Assembly (NCBI GenBank): GCA_013203475.1
Contig: JABMNV010000259.1
Location: 1-37,198, forward strand
Direction of reading: 5' to 3'
DNA from: Acidobacteriota bacterium
GTDB taxonomy: Bacteria; Acidobacteriota; Vicinamibacteria; Vicinamibacterales; SCN-69-37
Length of the DNA: 37,198 nt
Every line of letters starts with the position of its first letter. Position 1 is the first letter of the stretch. The notes below the pieces were generated by a model. That model was not told where the DNA came from. It worked only from the letters and a program-made list of their open reading frames with translations, and ran no database searches. Shown piece after piece: positions 2,686 to 28,994 of the stretch. The position numbers and the translations under genes were made by a program.

Positions 2686-5233
2686 CTACGCCTGTTTCTT
2701 GACTTCGCCCACGCTGGTGCGAGCCTTGAGCGTGCGAATCCCCTGCTCGATCCGTTCAGCCAACGCGCGCTCAGTCTGCAGCGAGCGCAACGTGCTCTGC
2801 GCCTGGTGGGTCATATCTTCCAGACGGGCGAGATTGGCGAGAACATGGTCGAGCACCAGACGCTGAGCCCCGACGGTCTCCACATTCACCTGGACATCGG
2901 CGAGCATGGCGGTAATCACGCTGACTTTGAGTTGTACCTCATCGACCATGCGCTGCCGGGCGTCAATCTCCGTCAACTTCTCATCCGTCCTCTGCGCCGT
3001 CGCCAGCAGGGCATCAACCTTCACTCGCAGCGCCGTGACCGCGCCGCGCTGCGCCTCGACAAACTTCAGGTCTGCCTTGCTGCGCGCCGAGACCGCATGC
3101 ACCCCTTCGACCTCGCTGCGAACGGCATCGAGCGTCGTTCTCCGTACGGCCAGGTCATCCATGCGCGACTCCACGTCCGCGGTCAGCGCCTGCAATTCCG
3201 CGAGCCGCGCCTCGAACGTCACCATGCGGCGCTCGGCGAACGCCACCTGATCGCGACGCTCTTCAATCTGCGTGAAGGCCGCCTCCAGCAGGCCAATTTG
3301 GTGCTCTGCGGTGGACAGTTGACCGGCGACGTCACGCTGCCGGCCCTGCACGACCGACAGTTCCTGCACCAGTTCGTTCTTGACCTTTGTCGAACGCCCC
3401 AGCGCTCCGGTGAGCCCGTCAAGCTGGGCGAGGCGCTCGGTGGTTTCGCCTGAGAGCCTCCGGAGCGGCTCCAACATGGTGGTGATGCGCTTCTCCTGAC
3501 CGACCAGTTCCTTCGCGTCCTGTCGCCGCCGCCAAGCGCTTCTGCGCGCGATCCACCTCGGTGCGGAGCGAGTCGACCTGCTCGACGAGGGTTAGGACTC
3601 TGGACTGCTCCTGACCGACAGCGTCGAGTTGATGCCGCAAATCGGAGACTCGGAGTTGCACGCCGTCACACGAGGCGCGCAACGCATCGACTTCCGCCTG
3701 TCGCGCAATCTGCTCCGTCAATCGTCGATCCACGTCTGCCGTCATGGAGTTGAGCGTGTTCAGCCGTCCATCGAGCCGCTCAACAAACTGCTGGTATCCC
3801 GTCAGGCGGGTCATGTGCCGATCCAGGTCATCGGCAATCAGCACGAGGTTGGCCGCCTTCTGGGTTCCCTCTTCCACGGTCGACAGCTTTTCCCGAACAG
3901 ATGTCAGGCGCCCATCGAGATCCGGCAAGGTGGCGGCAAAGACGGTGGTCCGCTCCATGAACCCTTCTATCGCCTGCCGATCGGCAGAGAGGCGATCGCG
4001 CATCTGGATGGCCTCAGCATGCTCGACATAAAACGCCTCAATATCTGACCTCAACTCCTCGAGATCCAGCCGCGAGGCTTTGAGGCTCTCCATCTGCCAG
4101 ACTGCCCGTCGCGCTGTCTCGTCCAACTGCTGCAAGTCCGTGCGAACCGATTCGACAGTGGCGACCTTCTTCGCCACCTCATCGGCGATGACACCGAACG
4201 ACATCATCTGGATCTCAAGTTGCGATAGTCGTTCCATGAGCGCGGCCACGGTCGGTTCGCGAGTCGACAGTCCCTGATGGGCTCGTTCGAGTCCCGCGAC
4301 GGATTCCTGGAGATTCGCCAGCCGCACTTGCGACGCGTCAAGCGCCCGGCGCTCTCCCGACAGTCGATCGACATACGTCCGGACCAGGAGTGCGGCCGCT
4401 CCGCGCTGCTCCTCAAGGCGCGCCAGATCCGCCACAAACGCCTCCCGGCGTCGGGTTGCGTCCTCGAGCTGTTGGGCAGACTCGCGGACGAGTTGGCCAA
4501 CACGTTCGGCCTGCTCCTCTGCGCGCTGCGCCTCCTGAGTCGTTCCTTCCAGGCGCACCACCTGCTCGTCCATGTTCGCGACCATTTCGCTGAGCCGATG
4601 GGCGGCCAGAATCGCCTGTTCCACTGTATGTTTCTGCTGGTCGAGGACCCGAGCCTTCAGCGTGACGTGTTCTGTCAGCGCGTTGAGGGCGCCGACGCGC
4701 TGATCCAGCGTCTTGGCCAGTTCCTGCAGCTTGATCAGGCCGGCTAATTTCGGTTCCACCTCACGCACGGTGACGGCGGCCGCAGACGCGTCGTCGCGGG
4801 CCTCCTGAGCCAAGTCCCGCACGCGGTCCTGGTCGGTGACGACCTGGGCGATTCCAGACCGGCAGTCGCTCACACTCGCGGTCACCCCGGCTGCCAGTGC
4901 ACGCGCCGCCTGCAGGTCATCGTTCGCCGTCCTCAGCGCGTTCGTGAGGGCATCGAGGGAGGCCTGCTCTGTGGAGAGGGTCTGCAACGTTGCTCGGGCC
5001 TGCATCGTGGTCGACGCCAACTGCTGGGCCTGCTGCTGCTGCTTGAGCCGCTCGTCCATCCAGGCCTCGGCTATGGCGGTAGCGGTCTGCCACTCGCTCC
5101 GCTGCGCGGCCGCCTGGCTGAGCAGCCCCAGCAACTCAGTCTTCGCCTCACGGAGGTCATCGAGAAGACGCACAGTTTCCTGATGGTCAGGTTGTGCGGC
5201 ACGCTCGCTCAACCGCTTCAGGGCATCCAGCAT
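2686..5233 (-). pseudogene. Very long cytoplasmic coiled-coil protein, one gene split into two ORFs (3419..5233 and 2686..3477) by an apparent frameshift
   Basis: Both ORFs are continuous E/Q/L/A/R-rich coiled coil without TM segments; the 5' ORF loses coiled-coil character at 'QKRLAAATGREGTGRSGEAHHHHVG' while the other frame reads 'QDAKELVGQEKRITTMLEPLRRLSGETTERL' into the 2686..3477 ORF. Confidence 0.75.
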
Positions 5234-5261
5234 GATGATGAGAGGATGACGCGGTTTGATG

Positions 5262-5825
5262 TCAGTTGGCGCGCCGGGCGCCAGAGAAACCCATAATCCG
5301 GCGCAGGTAGTCCGCCGCCGAGATCAAGGTGATCGCCAGTGAGAGATAGATAAAGGTCGGCAGGACGCCGTCGGGAACACCGCGATAGTTTCCGTACAGC
5401 GCAACCACGCCCGTCAGGATGTAGATGCCGGTGGCGGCCTTGCCCAACATCGACGGCATGAATGTCCGCCGAGCGACCGCCAGATTGATGACAGCCGCCG
5501 TCAGCACAATGGCAACATCTCGACTGATCACAAGGACGGTTAACCACAACGGAAGGCGGTATTGGAAGCCCAGGTCCGGCAAGGTCAACATCACAAACAT
5601 GGTCAGAAGAAGCAACTTGTCGGCCATTGGGTCGAGCCAGGCGCCCAGGGCGGTCTGCTGCCGCGTCCAGCGGGCAATCAAGCCGTCAAGCAGGTCGGTG
5701 ACCCCGGCCACCGAAAACGTCAGCAGCGCCCAGCCTGGATGGCCGTACAACATGCAGAGGGCGAACACCGGGACCAGCCCCATGCGGGACAGCGTCAGGA
5801 GATTGGCCGGCGTGAAAACCGTCAC
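5262..5825 (-). CDS. pgsA: CDP-alcohol phosphatidyltransferase (PgsA-like)
   Basis: CDP-alcohol phosphotransferase signature 'DLLDGLIARWTRQQTALGAWLDPMADKLLLL' (DGxxAR...G...DxxxD) plus TM segments. Confidence 0.88.
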   Translation of the reverse strand: MTVFTPANLLTLSRMGLVPVFALCMLYGHPGWALLTFSVAGVTDLLDGLIARWTRQQTALGAWLDPMADKLLLLTMFVMLTLPDLGFQYRLPLWLTVLVISRDVAIVLTAAVINLAVARRTFMPSMLGKAATGIYILTGVVALYGNYRGVPDGVLPTFIYLSLAITLISAADYLRRIMGFSGARRAN

Positions 5826-7177
5826 TGGCGCACCCGCCGTCCGGACAACTGTTCAAGTCTGGCGACTGCGGCGATGACATCAGCTCCGGCCGCCTGACGA
5901 TTTGGCTGAAACCGATCACGATCGCCCAGGCCCATGACTCCGCTCGCCAAGGCACCGGCAATCGCCCGATACGCCAGGTGTGTTTGTGAGACATCAGGCA
6001 CATCGAGTTGAGCCGCCTGCCACCGCGCCAGGTCCTGGGGCTGATCTGCTGCCAGATCCTGAACGACCCGCCAGACCGCCAGCGCCAAATCGGAGCGGCG
6101 GACGTCGGCCGATGGCTGAAACGTGTGATTGGCGAACGACTCCATCCATCCGACTCGGGTGACAGGAAGAATCCACGCAGCAGCCCAGTGAGCCTGCACG
6201 TCTGTCAGCACCACGGTCACGCGCCGAGGCGCACGGGCCAACGCGGGCTGGAGCCGGATGCCCAGCGCGGCGGCCAGTTGCCCCCGCGTCACGTGCGATG
6301 CGGACGGAATCGCGCGATACTCCTCGGGTAGCGCTTCAAATTCCACGCGCGCACGCAGTGTCGCTGCCCGCTCCCGCCACTCGGGTCTGGGGTCAAGCGC
6401 CGCGGCTCGAGCGAAGGCCTCAGCCGCATCGCGCAGTCGACCATGAGCCTCAAGCACGGTCGCCAGGACGGCATGGGTCTCGGCGTCGCCCGCGTCAAGA
6501 TCCAACGACCGGCGAGCGTGAGCCTCGGCGGCGTCGAACGCGCCCCTGGCGATCTCAACGAGCGCGACCTCACGCAAAACGACGGCGCTGTCTGGCGCCA
6601 TCACCAGTGCCTGATCGAGAGCGACCTGCGCCTGGTCCCATTCTCCGTTGGAGCGCGCCGAGGCGGCGCGCGCTAACTGGGCCTGAATCACGCGCAACCG
6701 GAGCACGTCCTGCTGTCCACGCACATCCTCACGTGTCGGATCCGACGCCAGAATCAACTCTGAGGTGGCCAGCGCCGACACGTCATCCCCCGTCACCAGT
6801 GCCACGTCCATGCGTCCGAGCAGCGCAGGTAAGTACGTCTGGTCAGCTCCGATCGCGGCATCAAACCGCCGCGCGGCTTCCTCGTATCGACGTTCAAGCG
6901 ATGCGACATACGCCAAGCCGACTTCCGCGGGAAAAAACGCTACGTCTCCCCGTAGAGCCTCCTCGTAGGCCCGTCCGGCGGCCTTGAGGTCTCCCGCCTG
7001 TAACTCTCGCCACGCCGCCTCATGTCGGCCACGCACCTCGGCCGACGTGATGAGAGAATCAGGCAGTGTCAATCGAGGCAAGTCCGGGTACGCGGCCACG
7101 AGGGAGACGGCCGGCGGAACTGACGCGCACGAGGCGGCGATTCCCAGACCGAGAGCCAGCAGTAGTTGGCGCATCAC
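5822..7177 (-). CDS. TPR-containing lipoprotein with C-terminal SLH-like domains
   Basis: Signal/lipobox 'LLLALGLGIAASCASV', TPR-like repeats, C-terminal 'VTRGQLAAALGIRL...DVQAHWAAAWILPVTRVGWM...FQPSADVRRSDLALAVWRV' and 'DVPDVSQTHLAYRAIAGALASGVM' resembling S-layer homology repeats. Confidence 0.78.
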   Translation of the reverse strand: MMRQLLLALGLGIAASCASVPPAVSLVAAYPDLPRLTLPDSLITSAEVRGRHEAAWRELQAGDLKAAGRAYEEALRGDVAFFPAEVGLAYVASLERRYEEAARRFDAAIGADQTYLPALLGRMDVALVTGDDVSALATSELILASDPTREDVRGQQDVLRLRVIQAQLARAASARSNGEWDQAQVALDQALVMAPDSAVVLREVALVEIARGAFDAAEAHARRSLDLDAGDAETHAVLATVLEAHGRLRDAAEAFARAAALDPRPEWRERAATLRARVEFEALPEEYRAIPSASHVTRGQLAAALGIRLQPALARAPRRVTVVLTDVQAHWAAAWILPVTRVGWMESFANHTFQPSADVRRSDLALAVWRVVQDLAADQPQDLARWQAAQLDVPDVSQTHLAYRAIAGALASGVMGLGDRDRFQPNRQAAGADVIAAVARLEQLSGRRVRQ

Positions 7178-21989: not shown

Positions 21990-24900
21990 TTAGAACCGGA
22001 GTCGGCCGCCGAGTTGCATCTGCCACCGCGAGCGGAGGTCGTCCCGGTTGTACCGCCGGAACGACGACCCTGTCAGGAAGCCGATGTTGTAGTTGGTGAT
22101 CTGCCCACCGGACACCGTCGCGGTCACGGGTGAGATGGAGTTGAACGTGGCGTACTGCTGAATGCCCTTCCCGGAATCAATCAGGTTGAGCACATTCAGG
22201 ATGTCGAGCGTGATTTCAGCCTTCACCCGCTGGAACGGCAGGGCCACGTTCAGGCGGAAGTCGAGCTGATTGCTCCAGGGCGCGCGGCACACGTTGCGGG
22301 GAATGATCTGCCCGATGTATTCGGCGAGGCAGCCCCCGTCCTCCTGGAGGAAGTTCGTCAGATCCTGATACGTGCCACCGGTGAACGACACCTCGCTCGC
22401 GCTCGCTGGAATGTAGAGCAGGTCGCTCGTACGGCCATCACCGTTCACGTCATTGAAAAACCGAAGGGTGTAGGGGCGCCCCGACTGTCCCGAGTAGTAC
22501 ATCGACGCAGTCGCGGTCGAACCTCCGAACAGGCCGAACTGGTACGACGAAGACATCGTGATCCGGTGTCCCGGGTCATAGACCGACGTCGAGAGCGGCA
22601 AGTTGTTCGCGTCCCCCGGAGTCAAGGCGTTGCCCCAGTTTGACGCGGCCTGACTCGACGTGCCGTCCGTGATGCTCTTGGACTGGCCGTAGAGATAAGA
22701 CGCGTTGAGGAACCACCCATTGCTGAAGGGACGACGGACCTCGACCAGTCCGCTCCACGTGGAACCCTCACTCGAATTCGAGAGCAGAATCACGTCGCTG
22801 AACGACGAGTCCTTGGAACCAAAGTAGGGACGGTTACCCAGCGTCTGCGTGCCTGTCTGCACTTTGTTCAGGTTCTGATATCGGATGTCCTCAATGTTCC
22901 GCGTGAAGAGGAACTCGGTAGATCCCACCAAGCCCCAGGGCAAGTTGGTGTCATATGCCAGGTTGCCGCGCAGCAGTGTCGGGTACTTGTAGTCCGGATC
23001 AATCAGGTCGATCTCGTTCGTGAACCCACGACCAAACGCACCCGTCACCGTCGTCGGCTGCGCGAGCGCATTCGCCACGAACGGAATCTGGTTGGCGTTG
23101 TTGTTCGAGGCGCCTATCCGCTGGAACTCAAGGCCCGTGTTGCTGTACTGGTTCGACAGCCACACGTACGGTGTGCGGCCCGAGAACATGCCAATGCCGC
23201 CTCGGATCTGCTTTTCGCCGTCGGAGTTGAGATCCCAGTTGAAACCAACACGGGGCGAATACCGTACGCCACCGGGCGTGGTGTCGGTGGAGTACCCGAA
23301 GTTGGCCTGCGCAGCCGGATTGGCGCTAGGCGTGTCCGGGAAGCTGGGCACATCAATTCGCATGCCCAGAGTCAGCGTCACATTCGGACGCCACCGGAAC
23401 TGGTCCCCGACGTACAGGCCCATCGTGCGCACACCGAACTCGGCGGCGCTCTTGGACGGGTTCACGGCATAGCTATAATCAAACTGCTGCGCCAGCCCCT
23501 GGTCGAACTTGTCGAGCGAGTTGAACGTGTAGGTGCCGAAGTTGTCGCGGATGAACAGGTTCCGGAAATCGAAGAACTCGTTGTGCGTGCCAACCGTGAT
23601 CGTGTGGCTGCCCTTGAGCCACGTGAAGTCATCGTGAATCTCGATGATGTTCTGGTCCAGTTCGTTTGCCGTTGAGAAGTTCTCTCGACCCACGGTGATC
23701 TGCAGCGAACTGGGCAGACGCACCGTCACGCGCGGAAACGGCGTCGTCTCGGTCGGCTGTGCGCCGCGTCGATCCCGCACGCGCGTGTAGGCCACGCGCA
23801 GCTCGTTCACAGCACTGCCGAACGTCGAGTTCAACTGCGCAACCGTGCCATTGGTGGTCGACCGGAAGCGGTAGCCCCCATCTGGCGTGATGTAGCGCGT
23901 CTCGCTCGGGAACGCAATGTCGTTGAGCCCCTTGACGTAGTTGTGACGGAGCGTGAGCCGACTGTTATTCGACAAATTGACATCAATCTTGCCAAGAAAT
24001 TTGTTCGAGTCAGTGGTTCGGCTGAACTCGTCCTTCGCCCCTGGCACGGTGTAGTTGTACTTGCTCTGCAGGATGCTGAAGAAACGATCGACGTCCGCTG
24101 TCGTGCCGCGAAATTCCTGCGCACAGCCCGTGATGCAGAATCCGGTCGGCGTCAACTTACGCCCCCAGTCGGCGTTCGCAAAGAAAAACGCTTTGTTCTC
24201 GACGAGCCGTCCGCCCACGCTGAAGCCGAGCTGCTTATCGCTGAAGTTCGAAATGGGCGTCTTCGAAATGCCGTCGCCGACCCAGCTCTGATTCCGTCCA
24301 AAGTAGAATGCCGTGCCGCTCAGTTGGTTCGTGCCGCTCTTGGTGATGGCGTTGATGCCGCCACCGGAGAAGCCCCCCTGCCTCACGTCATACGGCGAGA
24401 CGACCAGCTGAATCTGCGCGATGGCGTCGAGACTGACCGGTTGCGTTTCCGTCTGACCACCAGGCGTGCCCGTGTTGGCCAAACCGAACAAGTCGTTGTT
24501 GACCGCGCCGTCAATCTGGATGCTGTTGTACCGCTCGTTACGACCCGCCACCGAAATTCCGGCCACGCCGTTGTTGGTGGCGATCGCGCTGAAGTAAGGG
24601 TTCGTGCGCACCACGTCTGTGAGGCTGCGCGAAATGGTTGGCAGTGACTCTTTGATGTCGCTGGAGATGTTCCCACCCGCGCCCGCGCGCAACGTGTCAA
24701 TCGCCGGCGTTTCGGCCGTCACCGTCACCGTTTCGCTGACACTGCTCAGGTCCAACTTGAACACCAGCGAGCGTTCCTCGCCGAGATTCACGATGAGATT
24801 GGCCTGTTCGTTCGCGCGGAAACCAGACATGGTCACGGTCACCGTGTACGGCCCGCCAGCCTGCACATTCAACAGCGTGAAACGGCCATCGGCCGCAACG

Positions 24901-25097
24901 ACGCCTTCGTAGGTCGTGCCCGTCGGCCGGTGCACGGCCACGACGGTCGCCCCCGGCAGTACCCCGCCTTGGGAGTCGACCACCGAGCCAGACAGCACGC
25001 CAGTGGTGACGGTCTGCGCGGTGGCAGGTGCCGACACGACCAGCGCTGCGCACAGCACAAAGCTGAGAAACAGCGTCGTCTTACTTACAAGCTTCAT
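21990..25097 (-). CDS. TonB-dependent receptor-like outer membrane protein with N-terminal carboxypeptidase-regulatory-like domain
   Basis: Signal peptide; 'GVLSGSVVDSQGGVLPGATVVAVHRPTGTTYEGVVAADGRFTLLNVQAGGPYTVTV'; plug-like 'RSLTDVVRTNPYFSAIATNNGVAGISVAGRNERYNSIQIDGAVNNDLFGL'; long beta-barrel ending in aromatic '...LGGRLRF'. Confidence 0.9.
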   Translation of the reverse strand: MKLVSKTTLFLSFVLCAALVVSAPATAQTVTTGVLSGSVVDSQGGVLPGATVVAVHRPTGTTYEGVVAADGRFTLLNVQAGGPYTVTVTMSGFRANEQANLIVNLGEERSLVFKLDLSSVSETVTVTAETPAIDTLRAGAGGNISSDIKESLPTISRSLTDVVRTNPYFSAIATNNGVAGISVAGRNERYNSIQIDGAVNNDLFGLANTGTPGGQTETQPVSLDAIAQIQLVVSPYDVRQGGFSGGGINAITKSGTNQLSGTAFYFGRNQSWVGDGISKTPISNFSDKQLGFSVGGRLVENKAFFFANADWGRKLTPTGFCITGCAQEFRGTTADVDRFFSILQSKYNYTVPGAKDEFSRTTDSNKFLGKIDVNLSNNSRLTLRHNYVKGLNDIAFPSETRYITPDGGYRFRSTTNGTVAQLNSTFGSAVNELRVAYTRVRDRRGAQPTETTPFPRVTVRLPSSLQITVGRENFSTANELDQNIIEIHDDFTWLKGSHTITVGTHNEFFDFRNLFIRDNFGTYTFNSLDKFDQGLAQQFDYSYAVNPSKSAAEFGVRTMGLYVGDQFRWRPNVTLTLGMRIDVPSFPDTPSANPAAQANFGYSTDTTPGGVRYSPRVGFNWDLNSDGEKQIRGGIGMFSGRTPYVWLSNQYSNTGLEFQRIGASNNNANQIPFVANALAQPTTVTGAFGRGFTNEIDLIDPDYKYPTLLRGNLAYDTNLPWGLVGSTEFLFTRNIEDIRYQNLNKVQTGTQTLGNRPYFGSKDSSFSDVILLSNSSEGSTWSGLVEVRRPFSNGWFLNASYLYGQSKSITDGTSSQAASNWGNALTPGDANNLPLSTSVYDPGHRITMSSSYQFGLFGGSTATASMYYSGQSGRPYTLRFFNDVNGDGRTSDLLYIPASASEVSFTGGTYQDLTNFLQEDGGCLAEYIGQIIPRNVCRAPWSNQLDFRLNVALPFQRVKAEITLDILNVLNLIDSGKGIQQYATFNSISPVTATVSGGQITNYNIGFLTGSSFRRYNRDDLRSRWQMQLGGRLRF

Positions 25098-25283
25098 TCC
25101 TAGTCTCCAGTTCCAAATATTAAGAAGTCCAAGTCAACCGTTCCCACACGCAGAACAACGGCAAACGCGACACCGCGCTTCGACGAAATACGAGAAAGTT
25201 ATGAATCGTATCGAACCACGTTGCAACCGCCGAAGCTACGGAAACATCAGATCACAAATCAGGGTGAATCCTGCCCGATCAAA

Positions 25284-25313
25284 CAGGTCCGAGTATAGCG
25301 CGGCTAGGACCTG
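25284..25313 (-). terminator. Nested inverted repeat downstream of the VWA gene; candidate weak terminator or operator
   Basis: CAGGTCC-gagta-TAGC-gcg-GCTA-GGACCTG (7 bp and 4 bp arms); in the minus direction it is followed by TTTGATC. Confidence 0.4.
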
Positions 25314-25344
25314 ACCAGATTACGAACAGGTTAATTCTGAGGCG

Positions 25345-26712
25345 TCAGCGGTCCTTCTTCTGAAACGGAAGTGTCCACTGGGAACGATGGGTCACGTCCA
25401 CGTCGTCCCGGCCCACTTTGACCTCGATTTTCCGCACGCGGCGCAAGGGGTCCGGATTCGAAGAGTAGTACCGAAGGATGTAATAGTCGCTGGTTTCCGA
25501 GTCAATCCGCTCCAACCCGCGCTTGAAATCGTTGGAATTGCAGATGCAGAACCCGCCGGTCAGGTCGGCGATGGTCCGAAGCGAGTCTACAGAAGTCGTG
25601 ATGTGGGTGCGCCACTCCCGGCTGCTCAAGCTCTGGTTGATATCGGGGCCGGCCACCAGACCACGCGGGTCAATCGTATAAAACGTGGCGTTTGCACGAT
25701 TGGCTGCGCGGGTCAACTCGGCCAACTCCGACACCAGGTCGGCCACGGCGAACGCCTGCGTGCCTCTCTCAAACGGATTGTCTCCGGCCGCAATGCTGCC
25801 GCCGTTGGTCTCGACCGAGGAGTTGATGCCAAGCCCCTCCTGATCGTCTCGAAGCGGCCTGGAATACTTGTCCTGCTCCTGCTTCCACCGCGACTCGGTG
25901 AACGGGTTAAAGTCGTAGCCTGAACTCAAATACACAAACGCCTTCCGGCGATTGTTAATCGACTCCATCTGCTTGAGCAGATCGTAGGCCGTCGAAAACG
26001 CAACGTGCACCCGGTGGCGTAACTCCAGCGGTCCAGACGAGGACGCTGGCGCCAATAAAATGTCCTCCGGAGACATCCCGGATCCCATCACCTTCTTGAT
26101 GGACTCGGTCAGACGACTGCGGTCATACGTCGGATTCACTTCGATGGACGACGGGCCGGTCGACACGACCGCGAACAAGTCGCCGTCGTGTACGAGCGTG
26201 TTCGTGATCTGTGTGAGCAGATTACGAACCCTCGGCGAGTCTCCCGCCTGCAAGTGCAGGTCATCAATAAAAATAATGAACACGCGCCCGGCCACGTCCG
26301 CCACGGGGCGAGAGGGGGGCAGAATCATGCCGTTCGGCGCCATCAAAGCAGCAGGCGCCTCAGCCGAAAGTTGCCGACCGCCGTAAATCAGATGTGGCTC
26401 AAGAATCTCCTGGGGCACGCCATCTTCGAGCACCACAAACTCATCTCGACGCAAGTCTGGAAGAAACTGCCCGCGCTTGTCTCGGACGATGACATCCAGA
26501 GTGACCAGGTCAACTTGGCTGACGAACGTTGGCCTCTGCGTCTGCTGGGCCGGCTGGGGCGGCTGCTGCCCCCTGACCGTCACGGTCACCAGCAGGGCGA
26601 CCATCACCAGACCGATCGGGGCCAGAACTCTCCGGAACAGTCGTGACCGGCGGGGCCACCGCAGGCTCAGGAACGGCGACTTCAGCGTGTGTTGTTCTCT
26701 CATCGGATTCAT
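25345..26712 (-). CDS. VWA-domain protein, acidobacterial 'VWFA-related' type
   Basis: 'FVSQVDLVTLDVIVRDKRGQFLPDLRRDEFVVLEDGVPQEI', 'VFIIFIDDLHLQAGDSPRVRNLLTQI', 'RKAFVYLSSGYDFNPF'; N-terminal TM/signal; C-terminal 'YYILRYYSSNPDPLRRVRKIEVKV'. Confidence 0.85.
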   Translation of the reverse strand: MNPMREQHTLKSPFLSLRWPRRSRLFRRVLAPIGLVMVALLVTVTVRGQQPPQPAQQTQRPTFVSQVDLVTLDVIVRDKRGQFLPDLRRDEFVVLEDGVPQEILEPHLIYGGRQLSAEAPAALMAPNGMILPPSRPVADVAGRVFIIFIDDLHLQAGDSPRVRNLLTQITNTLVHDGDLFAVVSTGPSSIEVNPTYDRSRLTESIKKVMGSGMSPEDILLAPASSSGPLELRHRVHVAFSTAYDLLKQMESINNRRKAFVYLSSGYDFNPFTESRWKQEQDKYSRPLRDDQEGLGINSSVETNGGSIAAGDNPFERGTQAFAVADLVSELAELTRAANRANATFYTIDPRGLVAGPDINQSLSSREWRTHITTSVDSLRTIADLTGGFCICNSNDFKRGLERIDSETSDYYILRYYSSNPDPLRRVRKIEVKVGRDDVDVTHRSQWTLPFQKKDR

Positions 26713-27307
26713 TTCGCTCTCCGATTATGACATCGCTCGGCGGCAACTGGTCTTTTCCATCTTTTCCGCCTCGGCGTCCGCGGCGACGCCTGGGTAATTC
26801 GCCGGTGATGGCATCCCACTGCGCGTCAACCTTGGATTGTGCCGCCCGAACGGCGGTCTCGTCGGTCCAAGTGTCGGGATTGGTGCCCGCCAGCGCCTCG
26901 AGAAGCCGATCTCGTTCTTCTGGCGTCCTCCCTCGCCGTGCGATGCGATGGTTCAGTTCCGCATACCGCGCGCGGAGCCGGGTGGCCTCAATCGCCCCAA
27001 GCGTCCGCCCCAGCAGAGAACCATCCTCGACGACGACGGGTGGCCGCGCTTCTCTGGCCGCCCGTTCGCTGCGCGCCGCGCGCTGCCGTGGCCCACGCTC
27101 GCGCGGATCAGGCCTGGGCGGCGGCGGCATCGGTTCGCGCAGGAGCCCGACCCAGTCGAACGTCAAATCAGGGTGGGTGTGCTCCAAGGCCTCCCGCACC
27201 TCTGCGTCCAGTGATGTTCGGCCCATCGGCACGCCCGATGGCGACCGAAACATGTAGAGGACGCGCGCACGCGCACTGCCCTGCCCCTGGCGGTAGGCGT
27301 GCATCAC
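26510..27307 (-). CDS. Hypothetical protein with disordered P/R-rich centre; probably starts upstream of the called ATG
   Basis: ORF with 'HAYRQGQGSARARVLYMFRSPSGVPMGRTSLDAEVREALEHTHPDLTFDWVGLLREP'; C-terminal ~65 codons overlap the VWA gene start in another frame. Confidence 0.55.
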   Translation of the reverse strand: MMHAYRQGQGSARARVLYMFRSPSGVPMGRTSLDAEVREALEHTHPDLTFDWVGLLREPMPPPPRPDPRERGPRQRAARSERAAREARPPVVVEDGSLLGRTLGAIEATRLRARYAELNHRIARRGRTPEERDRLLEALAGTNPDTWTDETAVRAAQSKVDAQWDAITGELPRRRRGRRGGKDGKDQLPPSDVIIGERNESDERTTHAEVAVPEPAVAPPVTTVPESSGPDRSGDGRPAGDRDGQGAAAAPAGPADAEANVRQPS

Positions 27308-27361
27308 ATACGTACATTCGTAGCCTCGCTTGTCGCGGGCATACCGAACAAAAGGCAGAAC

Positions 27362-28462
27362 TTACCTCTTTCTGGCGCCGAGCATCTTCGTGGACCGGAC
27401 CTTCGCCGCCGGCCGTCCCTTGGCTACGACCTTCCGGCCGGTCGGCTTCGTCACACGGGTCTTTGGTGACTTGGCTGAGTTAGACGACTTGGTCACCTTG
27501 GCGGCTTTCGCTGGTCTTGTCGACTTGATCGGCTTCGCCCCTTTGGTTGGCTTGGCCACATTGGCGGCTTTAGCCGGCTTGGCGGCCTTGGCCGACTTGG
27601 CGGCTTTGGCCGACTTGGCGGCTTTGGCCCGCTTGGCGGCCTTGGCTGGCTTGGCGGCCTTGGCTGGCTTGGCGGCCTTGGCTGGCTTGGCGGCTTTGGC
27701 CGGCTTGGCGGCCTTGGCTGGCTTGGTGGCTTTAGCCGGTTTGGTGGCCTTGGCTGGCGCGACCGACTTACCGGCCTTGGCCTCGCCAGCGGCTGCCTCG
27801 GCCCTTGCCACACTGGCGGCCTTTTCCACGGCAGCCGCCTGTCGCTTCGACCCGCCCCTGGATGAACGTCGCCTGGCCTCGGCAGCGGCCACCACGGCCT
27901 GGAGTTCACGTTCGAGCTCGACCTGCACAAGCATCCGTTCCACCACCCGGTCGACGGCCTTCTCTGCCTTGACCGTCGCCACCGGTGGAAGCAATTTTGC
28001 TTTGACCGAGGAGGCCTTCGGCGCCCGAGTCACCGCCGTCGGATCATGGAACATCTGGACGAGGTCGAATCCCTCGAACAGGGGCCGATAGGTCCAGATT
28101 TCGCTGATGACCACCTTATTGGCAGCGCAAAAACGCTTGGCCGCATCGACCATCAACACGGGCACGTACAGGTGGAACGGGACCTTCGCGCGACCGAAAT
28201 GCTGCCACTGCGCCAACGCCTCAAGGTTATTGGTTGATTCCCCTGTTTCGACCTCAATCAATCCGGCCACCTTCTTGTCTGACGACAAGAGGACCAGATC
28301 TGGAAAGCGGGTCGTCGCGCCGAATTTGACAGGCGCGGTCTGGTCGTCGCCCACGTTGACAACGACCTCGAACTTCTTTTTCTGATAAAGACCTTGCAAA
28401 AACCGGATGAGCCGGTCATGTTCGGCCTGTTCACGAGCTGGGCGAATATAAATGGGTGACAC
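27362..28462 (-). CDS. Predicted PD-(D/E)XK-like domain protein with histone-H1-like (AKxAKP)n C-terminal tail
   Basis: N-terminal 'ATTRFPDLVLLSSDKKVAGLIEVETGESTNN' (PD...ExE-like core); C-terminal 'AKATKPAKATKPAKAAKPAKAAKP...AKAAKRAKAAKSAKAAKSAKAAKP'. Confidence 0.75.
   Translation of the reverse strand: MSPIYIRPAREQAEHDRLIRFLQGLYQKKKFEVVVNVGDDQTAPVKFGATTRFPDLVLLSSDKKVAGLIEVETGESTNNLEALAQWQHFGRAKVPFHLYVPVLMVDAAKRFCAANKVVISEIWTYRPLFEGFDLVQMFHDPTAVTRAPKASSVKAKLLPPVATVKAEKAVDRVVERMLVQVELERELQAVVAAAEARRRSSRGGSKRQAAAVEKAASVARAEAAAGEAKAGKSVAPAKATKPAKATKPAKAAKPAKAAKPAKAAKPAKAAKPAKAAKRAKAAKSAKAAKSAKAAKPAKAANVAKPTKGAKPIKSTRPAKAAKVTKSSNSAKSPKTRVTKPTGRKVVAKGRPAAKVRSTKMLGARKR
27540..27765. repeat. Imperfect tandem ~18-bp coding repeat encoding AKAAKP-type hexapeptides
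   Basis: Repeated 'gcggccttggctggcttg' variants on the + strand (reverse complement encodes AKxAKP). Confidence 0.9.
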
Positions 28463-28619
28463 GCGGCCTCCGACTCAGTTAGGTCGCACGACAGAGCGAG
28501 CCAACTAACTGCCCGCTTGGCAGGGGTAATGGCCCGTATCCTAACACTAGTCGGCGCTCCATGAACGAAACAACGTCGAAAACGCTTCGAAATCGACGAA
28601 TCGACGTAGAATCGAGCCC

Positions 28620-28994
28620 GTGGCCCACATTCTCATCGTCGATGACGACCAGATCGTGGGCGATACCTTCGCCCGGATGCTCACCCTGTCTGGCCACAAG
28701 GTCACGACCGTCCAGAGCGCCGACGAGGCGCTGGTGGCGAGCACCCTGGAACCTCCCGACGCCCTGATTCTCGACATGCGGATGCCGGGGGTGAGTGGCC
28801 TGGAGTTCCTCCGAATCCTGCGACGCGATGCGCGGCTTCGCGAAACGCCGGTCGGCATTGTCACCGGCGACTACTTTCTGAACGAACCGGTTCTGGCTGA
28901 GATGCGGGCACTCGGCGCCACCGTGCGATACAAGCCGCTGTGGATGGATGACCTCAACGCGCTGGCGCAATCCCTGTTGACTCGGGCCAGCTGA
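28620..28994 (+). CDS. Single-domain response regulator (receiver only)
   Basis: 'HILIVDDDQIVGDTFARML', phospho-acceptor 'DALILDMRMPGVSGLEFL', 'RYKPL'; GTG start; no output domain. Confidence 0.9.
   Translation: MAHILIVDDDQIVGDTFARMLTLSGHKVTTVQSADEALVASTLEPPDALILDMRMPGVSGLEFLRILRRDARLRETPVGIVTGDYFLNEPVLAEMRALGATVRYKPLWMDDLNALAQSLLTRAS

Follow-up and report, generated by a model that had tools for sequence, protein, structure and literature searches.

A predicted PD-(D/E)XK-fold protein with a histone-H1-like tail and a probably coupled partner gene in the Vicinamibacterales

Introduction

SfsA (PF03749) binds DNA non-specifically and contains a predicted PD-(D/E)XK domain, and replacement of the lysine of the PD-(D/E)XK site by an acidic residue is documented within the superfamily (PMC1189080). 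SfsA is widespread and combines an N-terminal OB fold with an ID-EVK site. MmcB-like proteins (PF06319) are small, one-domain and PD-(D/E)XK-like, and the CARF-PD-(D/E)XK nucleases include Card1. Tails of Lys/Ala/Pro repeats that are disordered, highly basic and variable in length are known from AlgP, PhaF and Hc2 (PMC9239181, PMC2848022); the N-terminal part of AlgP is predicted to be helical, and its H1-like tail binds DNA (PMC9239181). The lysine-rich tails of TopA, Ku and HupB also bind DNA (PMC7398561; for TopA and Ku also PMC6821194). In the actinobacterial TopA and Ku, a basic extension at the C-terminus of a DNA enzyme or of a repair protein provides stable DNA contact and processivity (PMC7398561).

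Here we describe a gene, labelled FAM, in a window of 37,198 nucleotides, the whole stretch of DNA that was analysed. Like SfsA, FAM has a predicted PD-(D/E)XK domain, and SfsA is its best fold match in the PDB; unlike SfsA, it has no OB domain, shows an ExE site and carries an added tail. MmcB-like proteins give its best fold matches in a viral library, and an H1-like tail lies outside the PF06319 model. Card1 is also among its fold matches and a CARF-PD-(D/E)XK profile reached a sub-threshold PADLOC score (E=0.011), but FAM has no CARF domain and no profile match. The tail shares the properties of the AlgP, PhaF and Hc2 tails, although here it sits on a PD-(D/E)XK-fold head. In general layout FAM is like TopA and Ku, whose heads differ from that of FAM and whose tails are additions within known families. 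The component parts are thus of known kinds; their combination, the order-wide restriction and a probably coupled partner gene, labelled HYP, are new to us. Within an incomplete coverage of the literature, we found no paper joining an acidobacterial restriction-endonuclease-like protein with a lysine-rich or histone H1 tail.

Results

The FAM locus and its expression signals

An earlier sequence-only reading had placed the open reading frame at its exact coordinates and gave no strand; the gene lies on the minus strand.

27362-28462, minus strand: FAM, the main gene (366 aa, GTG start, TAA stop)
28467-28471, minus strand: Shine-Dalgarno sequence GGAGG of FAM; GGAG was found at 75 of 85 loci
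28538-28546, minus strand: extended -10 promoter element TGTTAGGAT, upstream of FAM

The extended -10 sequence TGNTANNNT was present in 77 of 85 regions upstream of FAM; shuffled sequence gave 7. A structured RNA leader was considered for this region and rejected: the conserved stretch is the extended -10 promoter together with the Shine-Dalgarno sequence, and no Rfam match was found there. Purifying selection on the FAM head is strong, with a dN/dS of about 0.06 between close relatives (0.058 for L050; the other pairs are near synonymous saturation). Conservation of the promoter element and Shine-Dalgarno sequence, low dN/dS and the distribution described below make FAM look like a regularly expressed, vertically inherited gene. 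It is not a chance open reading frame, since the motif recurs in 91 distinct heads, dN/dS is low and a basic tail follows in frame in all 83 complete, resolved homologues. A long antisense open reading frame (27330-28091, plus strand) encodes Leu/Ala/Gly repeats that mirror the repeat of the FAM tail, and is almost certainly an artefact.

Predicted fold of the head

28028-28462, minus strand: FAM head, residues 1-145, a predicted PD-(D/E)XK-fold domain (AlphaFold2 and Foldseek)

The AlphaFold2 model of the head (pI 7.1), built from an alignment of 21 family sequences, had a mean pLDDT of 89.6 and a pTM of 0.85. Its elements run H-E-E-E-E-E-H-E-H-E-E (helix, five strands, helix, strand, helix, two strands), an order that contains the PD-(D/E)XK core topology of helix, mixed sheet, helix and strand. 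In the model, D55 starts one core strand (55-58, model numbering) and E70-x-E72 ends the next, a predicted placement that corresponds to the PD and (D/E)xK positions.

Comparison of the model with the PDB using Foldseek returned known or presumed PD-(D/E)XK members as the top ten matches, including SfsA, YaeQ (which we take to share this fold), Card1, DrdV and BsaXI; tRNA splicing endonucleases also appeared among the matches. SfsA (4dap) was the best of these, with E=1.8e-3, probability 1.00 and a TM-score of 0.47, and no PDB match fell below E=1e-3. In the Foldseek viral library, nine matches had E<1e-3, the best being an MmcB-like DNA repair protein (E=2.2e-5). The modest E value and TM-score of the best PDB match indicate that the head resembles the core of the superfamily, not any single family.

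Sequence profiles gave a different result. Searches of FAM against Pfam, NCBIfam, PHROGs and PDB sequence profiles found nothing significant, and neither did hhalign against the SfsA and CARF-PD-(D/E)XK sets. For SfsA itself there was no Pfam match and the hhalign probability was 0.4%, in a comparison built on just 7 SfsA sequences. SfsA is present as a separate protein in G014, a genome of the order. PF06319 matched none of 21 FAM members, and its search found no MmcB in 99 Acidobacteriota genomes or in the window's own genome, a 3.58-Mb draft. PADLOC gave sub-threshold matches only, to REase_II and CARF_PDDEXK (E 0.011-0.045), at least one of them spanning the motif region. FAM therefore cannot be filed under a known family, which does not bar a fold assignment: the lack of a profile match to member families is frequent in the PD-(D/E)XK superfamily. 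The PD-(D/E)XK-like core that the sequence-only reading saw in the N-terminal part is thus upheld by fold comparison of the model, the only type of search to find it, and a PD-(D/E)XK fold for the head is supported at the level of prediction.

The putative active site

28421-28432, minus strand: acidic pair E11 and E14 of helix 1 (motif RPxREQxEHDR), identical in 91 of 91 heads
28298-28303, minus strand: PD motif, P54-D55, at the start of a core strand (D55 in 91 of 91 heads, P54 in 90 of 91)
28247-28255, minus strand: ExE motif, E70-V71-E72, at the end of the next core strand (E70 and E72 in 91 of 91 heads)

The motif 'RFPDLVLL...KKVAGLIEVETGES' comprises FAM residues 53-77. Among 91 distinct FAM heads (mean pairwise identity 58%, minimum 39%), E11, E14, D55, E70, E72, S76, E81 and W86 were invariant. 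The D...ExE acids singled out beforehand are therefore conserved in the homologues. Of the PD-(D/E)XK motif, PD and E70 are conserved, whereas the third position is Glu72, giving ExE in place of ExK. Position 64 almost always holds a basic residue, which sits at the opposite end of the strand. Because its acids are invariant the site looks maintained, which makes an active enzyme more likely than a dead one, as judged from conservation.

The H1-like tail

27776-28027, minus strand: FAM linker, residues 146-229, outside the conserved head alignment
27365-27775, minus strand: histone-H1-like AKxAKP tail, residues 230-366 (45 K/R, 0 D/E)
27561-27758, minus strand: 18-bp tandem repeat in 11 copies, encoding part of the FAM tail

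The Lys/Ala/Pro-rich, H1-like tail proved to be a general feature of the family, and with 137 aa it is longer than the approximately 100 aa first proposed. It contains 37 K, 8 R and no acidic residue (pI 12.0), and K+A+P reach 74% over 130 aa in FAM compared to 45% in the next open reading frame of the window. That runner-up is FAM's own antisense shadow and has no lysine; no other comparable open reading frame occurs there. A probe of the genome for other H1-like tails with one repeat query matched only FAM itself.

All 83 complete homologues were tailed. Two sequences were left outside this count: L020, which ends after 15 aa on a short contig, and L123, which is cut. The 83 tails were 41-403 aa long (median 79 aa), with a median of 31% K+R, 27% A and 13% P and at most 8.7% acidic residues; sequence and length vary freely, and composition is constant. 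The FAM tail is long, Lys/Ala/Pro-rich and nearly free of acids, as are the AlgP and Hc2 tails, and is predicted from composition to be disordered. One homologue (L161; G016, 4968-6809, minus strand) carries an Ala-, Pro- and Lys-rich tail of about 400 aa, and open reading frames of similar length to that of L161 (538-607 aa) occur in G028, G038 and G056.

The extreme C-terminus is commonly KRK, KRR or KKR among homologues. Retention of KRK only as codons for the HYP Shine-Dalgarno sequence was rejected: homologues without HYP still end in KKR, KRR or KGR. A contribution of this dual use to KRK conservation is plausible as part of the reason, and both reasons may act.

The main rival to an active enzyme is a catalytically inactive architectural protein, whose head would bind a partner or DNA but cleave nothing, and whose tail would compact or bridge DNA in the manner of AlgP or Hc2. 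The composition of the FAM tail does match AlgP-type DNA-binding tails (PMC9239181), and HYP too has a basic C-terminal region. The replacement of the ExK lysine by Glu also fits a dead site, but acidic substitution of this lysine is known in the superfamily (PMC1189080), and invariance of all putative metal-binding acids in 91 sequences would be unusual for a site without function. We consider this account unlikely, and the 'catalytically dead scaffold' suggested from the sequence is disfavoured.

An RNA-directed nuclease, or a ribosome- or RNA-associated factor with an RNA-binding basic tail, is distinctly improbable in our judgement. RNA is the target of some PD-(D/E)XK-fold proteins, and Card1 and the tRNA splicing endonucleases are among the fold matches, but the strongest of those matches (SfsA, restriction enzymes, MmcB-like proteins) are DNA-linked. 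Ribosomal proteins contain low-complexity segments rich in lysine (PMC6821194), whereas for H1-like AKP tails the best documented ligand is DNA. RNA or polyphosphate could nevertheless take the place of DNA as the ligand of the FAM tail.

The partner gene HYP

The sequence-only reading had missed the gene directly after FAM.

26510-27358, minus strand: HYP, the partner gene (282 aa, probable CTG start), with a conserved 76-aa N-terminal domain and a variable C-terminus containing RRRRGRRGG
27365-27371, minus strand: AAAGAGG at the end of FAM, the likely HYP ribosome-binding site; purine-rich ends are similar at most loci

The conserved HYP frame opens at a CTG (27356-27358, minus strand), one codon past the FAM TAA. 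In 62 loci the first codon was GTG (36), CTG (14), TTG (7), ATG (4) or GCC (1), and an apparent CTG start occurs in the window's genus and in others. Calling open reading frames from ATG, GTG and TTG only starts HYP 17 codons late and misses 17 conserved residues. HYP lay directly downstream of FAM in 64 of the 69 loci with enough flank, with a gap of at most 20 nt in 58 of these 64, suggesting that the two genes are probably translationally coupled.

The N-terminal 76 aa carry the motif RDKRGYE...LY.FRTP...GR...E...FDW, with R5, D9, R11, G12, L34, Y35, R38, G46, R47, E59, F67, D68 and W69 invariant, and had no significant Pfam or PDB sequence match. A model of this domain (pLDDT 84.4) contains three strands plus helices. 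Its PDB fold matches (E>0.6), to RNase-H-like and small heat-shock proteins, were judged uninformative. HYP was found in the order only, in a search of 198 genomes with a single sequence. Three genomes (G032, G051, G059) have HYP without FAM, and at least two (G017, G019) have FAM without HYP; any partnership is therefore not obligatory.

Distribution and gene neighbourhood

A profile search of 297 genomes detected FAM in 28 of the 31 genomes sampled from the order, taken as Vicinamibacterales by record names, and in 0 of 266 other Acidobacteriota. The head was found in 55 of 60 related genomes, in a single copy each except for one fragmentary second match. Six sampled genomes of the order were without FAM, so the gene is not strictly essential. 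Three further records (L107, L053, L123), titled Bifidobacterium breve or Acidimicrobiia, have the gene in its usual neighbourhood and are probably mislabelled MAGs or contigs.

28620-28994, plus strand: divergent single-domain response regulator (Pfam PF00072, E=2.1e-16), present at 51 of about 80 loci

Gene order around FAM is shared: the response regulator, an O-methyltransferase and an arginase-family gene lie upstream, and a VWA-type gene lies downstream. In the window, the conserved downstream order at 21990-26712 (minus strand) consists of the VWA-type protein (family assigned by eye, with no Pfam match) and a large TonB-receptor-like outer-membrane protein (OMP_b-brl_4, CarboxypepD_reg). 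No repair genes were found in the FAM neighbourhood, and no CRISPR context was seen at the locus in the window.

This distribution bears on the suggestion, also made from the sequence, that FAM is a defence enzyme. An anti-phage or restriction-type nuclease would be in keeping with the fold and with the sub-threshold PADLOC matches, but patchy occurrence and a mobile or defence-island context would be expected of it. FAM is instead single-copy, nearly universal in the order and fixed in its neighbourhood, it was not found in plasmid or phage records, and no DNA methyltransferase or other defence gene is adjacent. Such a stable, nearly order-universal distribution is untypical of defence genes. 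We therefore regard a defence role as very unlikely. That FAM stands in for a standard enzyme which the order lacks, a non-orthologous replacement that its order-specific, near-universal distribution could suggest, is hardly credible. For the Holliday-junction resolvase RuvC the idea was rejected, as 29 of 30 related genomes, the window's genome included, have RuvC.

Discussion

We propose, at about even confidence, that FAM is a housekeeping, nucleoid-tethered, metal-dependent PD-(D/E)XK nuclease that likely serves in DNA repair or maintenance and works with HYP. Most likely the head would be a metal-dependent phosphodiesterase acting on DNA: D55, E70 and E72, as an ExE variant, would bind metal, and E11 and E14 of helix 1 would complete the site. 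By analogy with the lysine repeats of TopA and Ku, the non-specific H1-like tail would hold FAM on the chromosome, raising its local concentration and its residence on DNA. Translational coupling would supply FAM in a fixed ratio with HYP and its Arg-rich C-terminus, and the two proteins, perhaps as physical partners, would probably cooperate in DNA repair or chromosome maintenance. Counting against a nuclease are the missing profile match, a TM-score of 0.47 at best, the absence of a catalytic Lys and the lack of neighbouring repair genes.

A bolder form of this proposal is put forward tentatively, as possible though doubtful: the H1-tailed ExE nuclease and the coupled, Arg-rich HYP may form a complex on the nucleoid that processes or protects the Vicinamibacterales chromosome, a chromatin system of two proteins that would define the order.

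Soil and water are the reported habitats of the Vicinamibacterales, many of which have not been cultured. Core genes that are confined to one order and to which no function has been assigned offer rare clues to how a lineage differs from others, and the invariant FAM site makes the hypothesis directly testable. FAM is probably a chromosome-bound DNA-processing enzyme on which these bacteria depend. If this is true, a nuclease-fold protein with a tail like that of eukaryotic H1, made together with the order-specific HYP, would represent a new type of bacterial chromatin enzyme.
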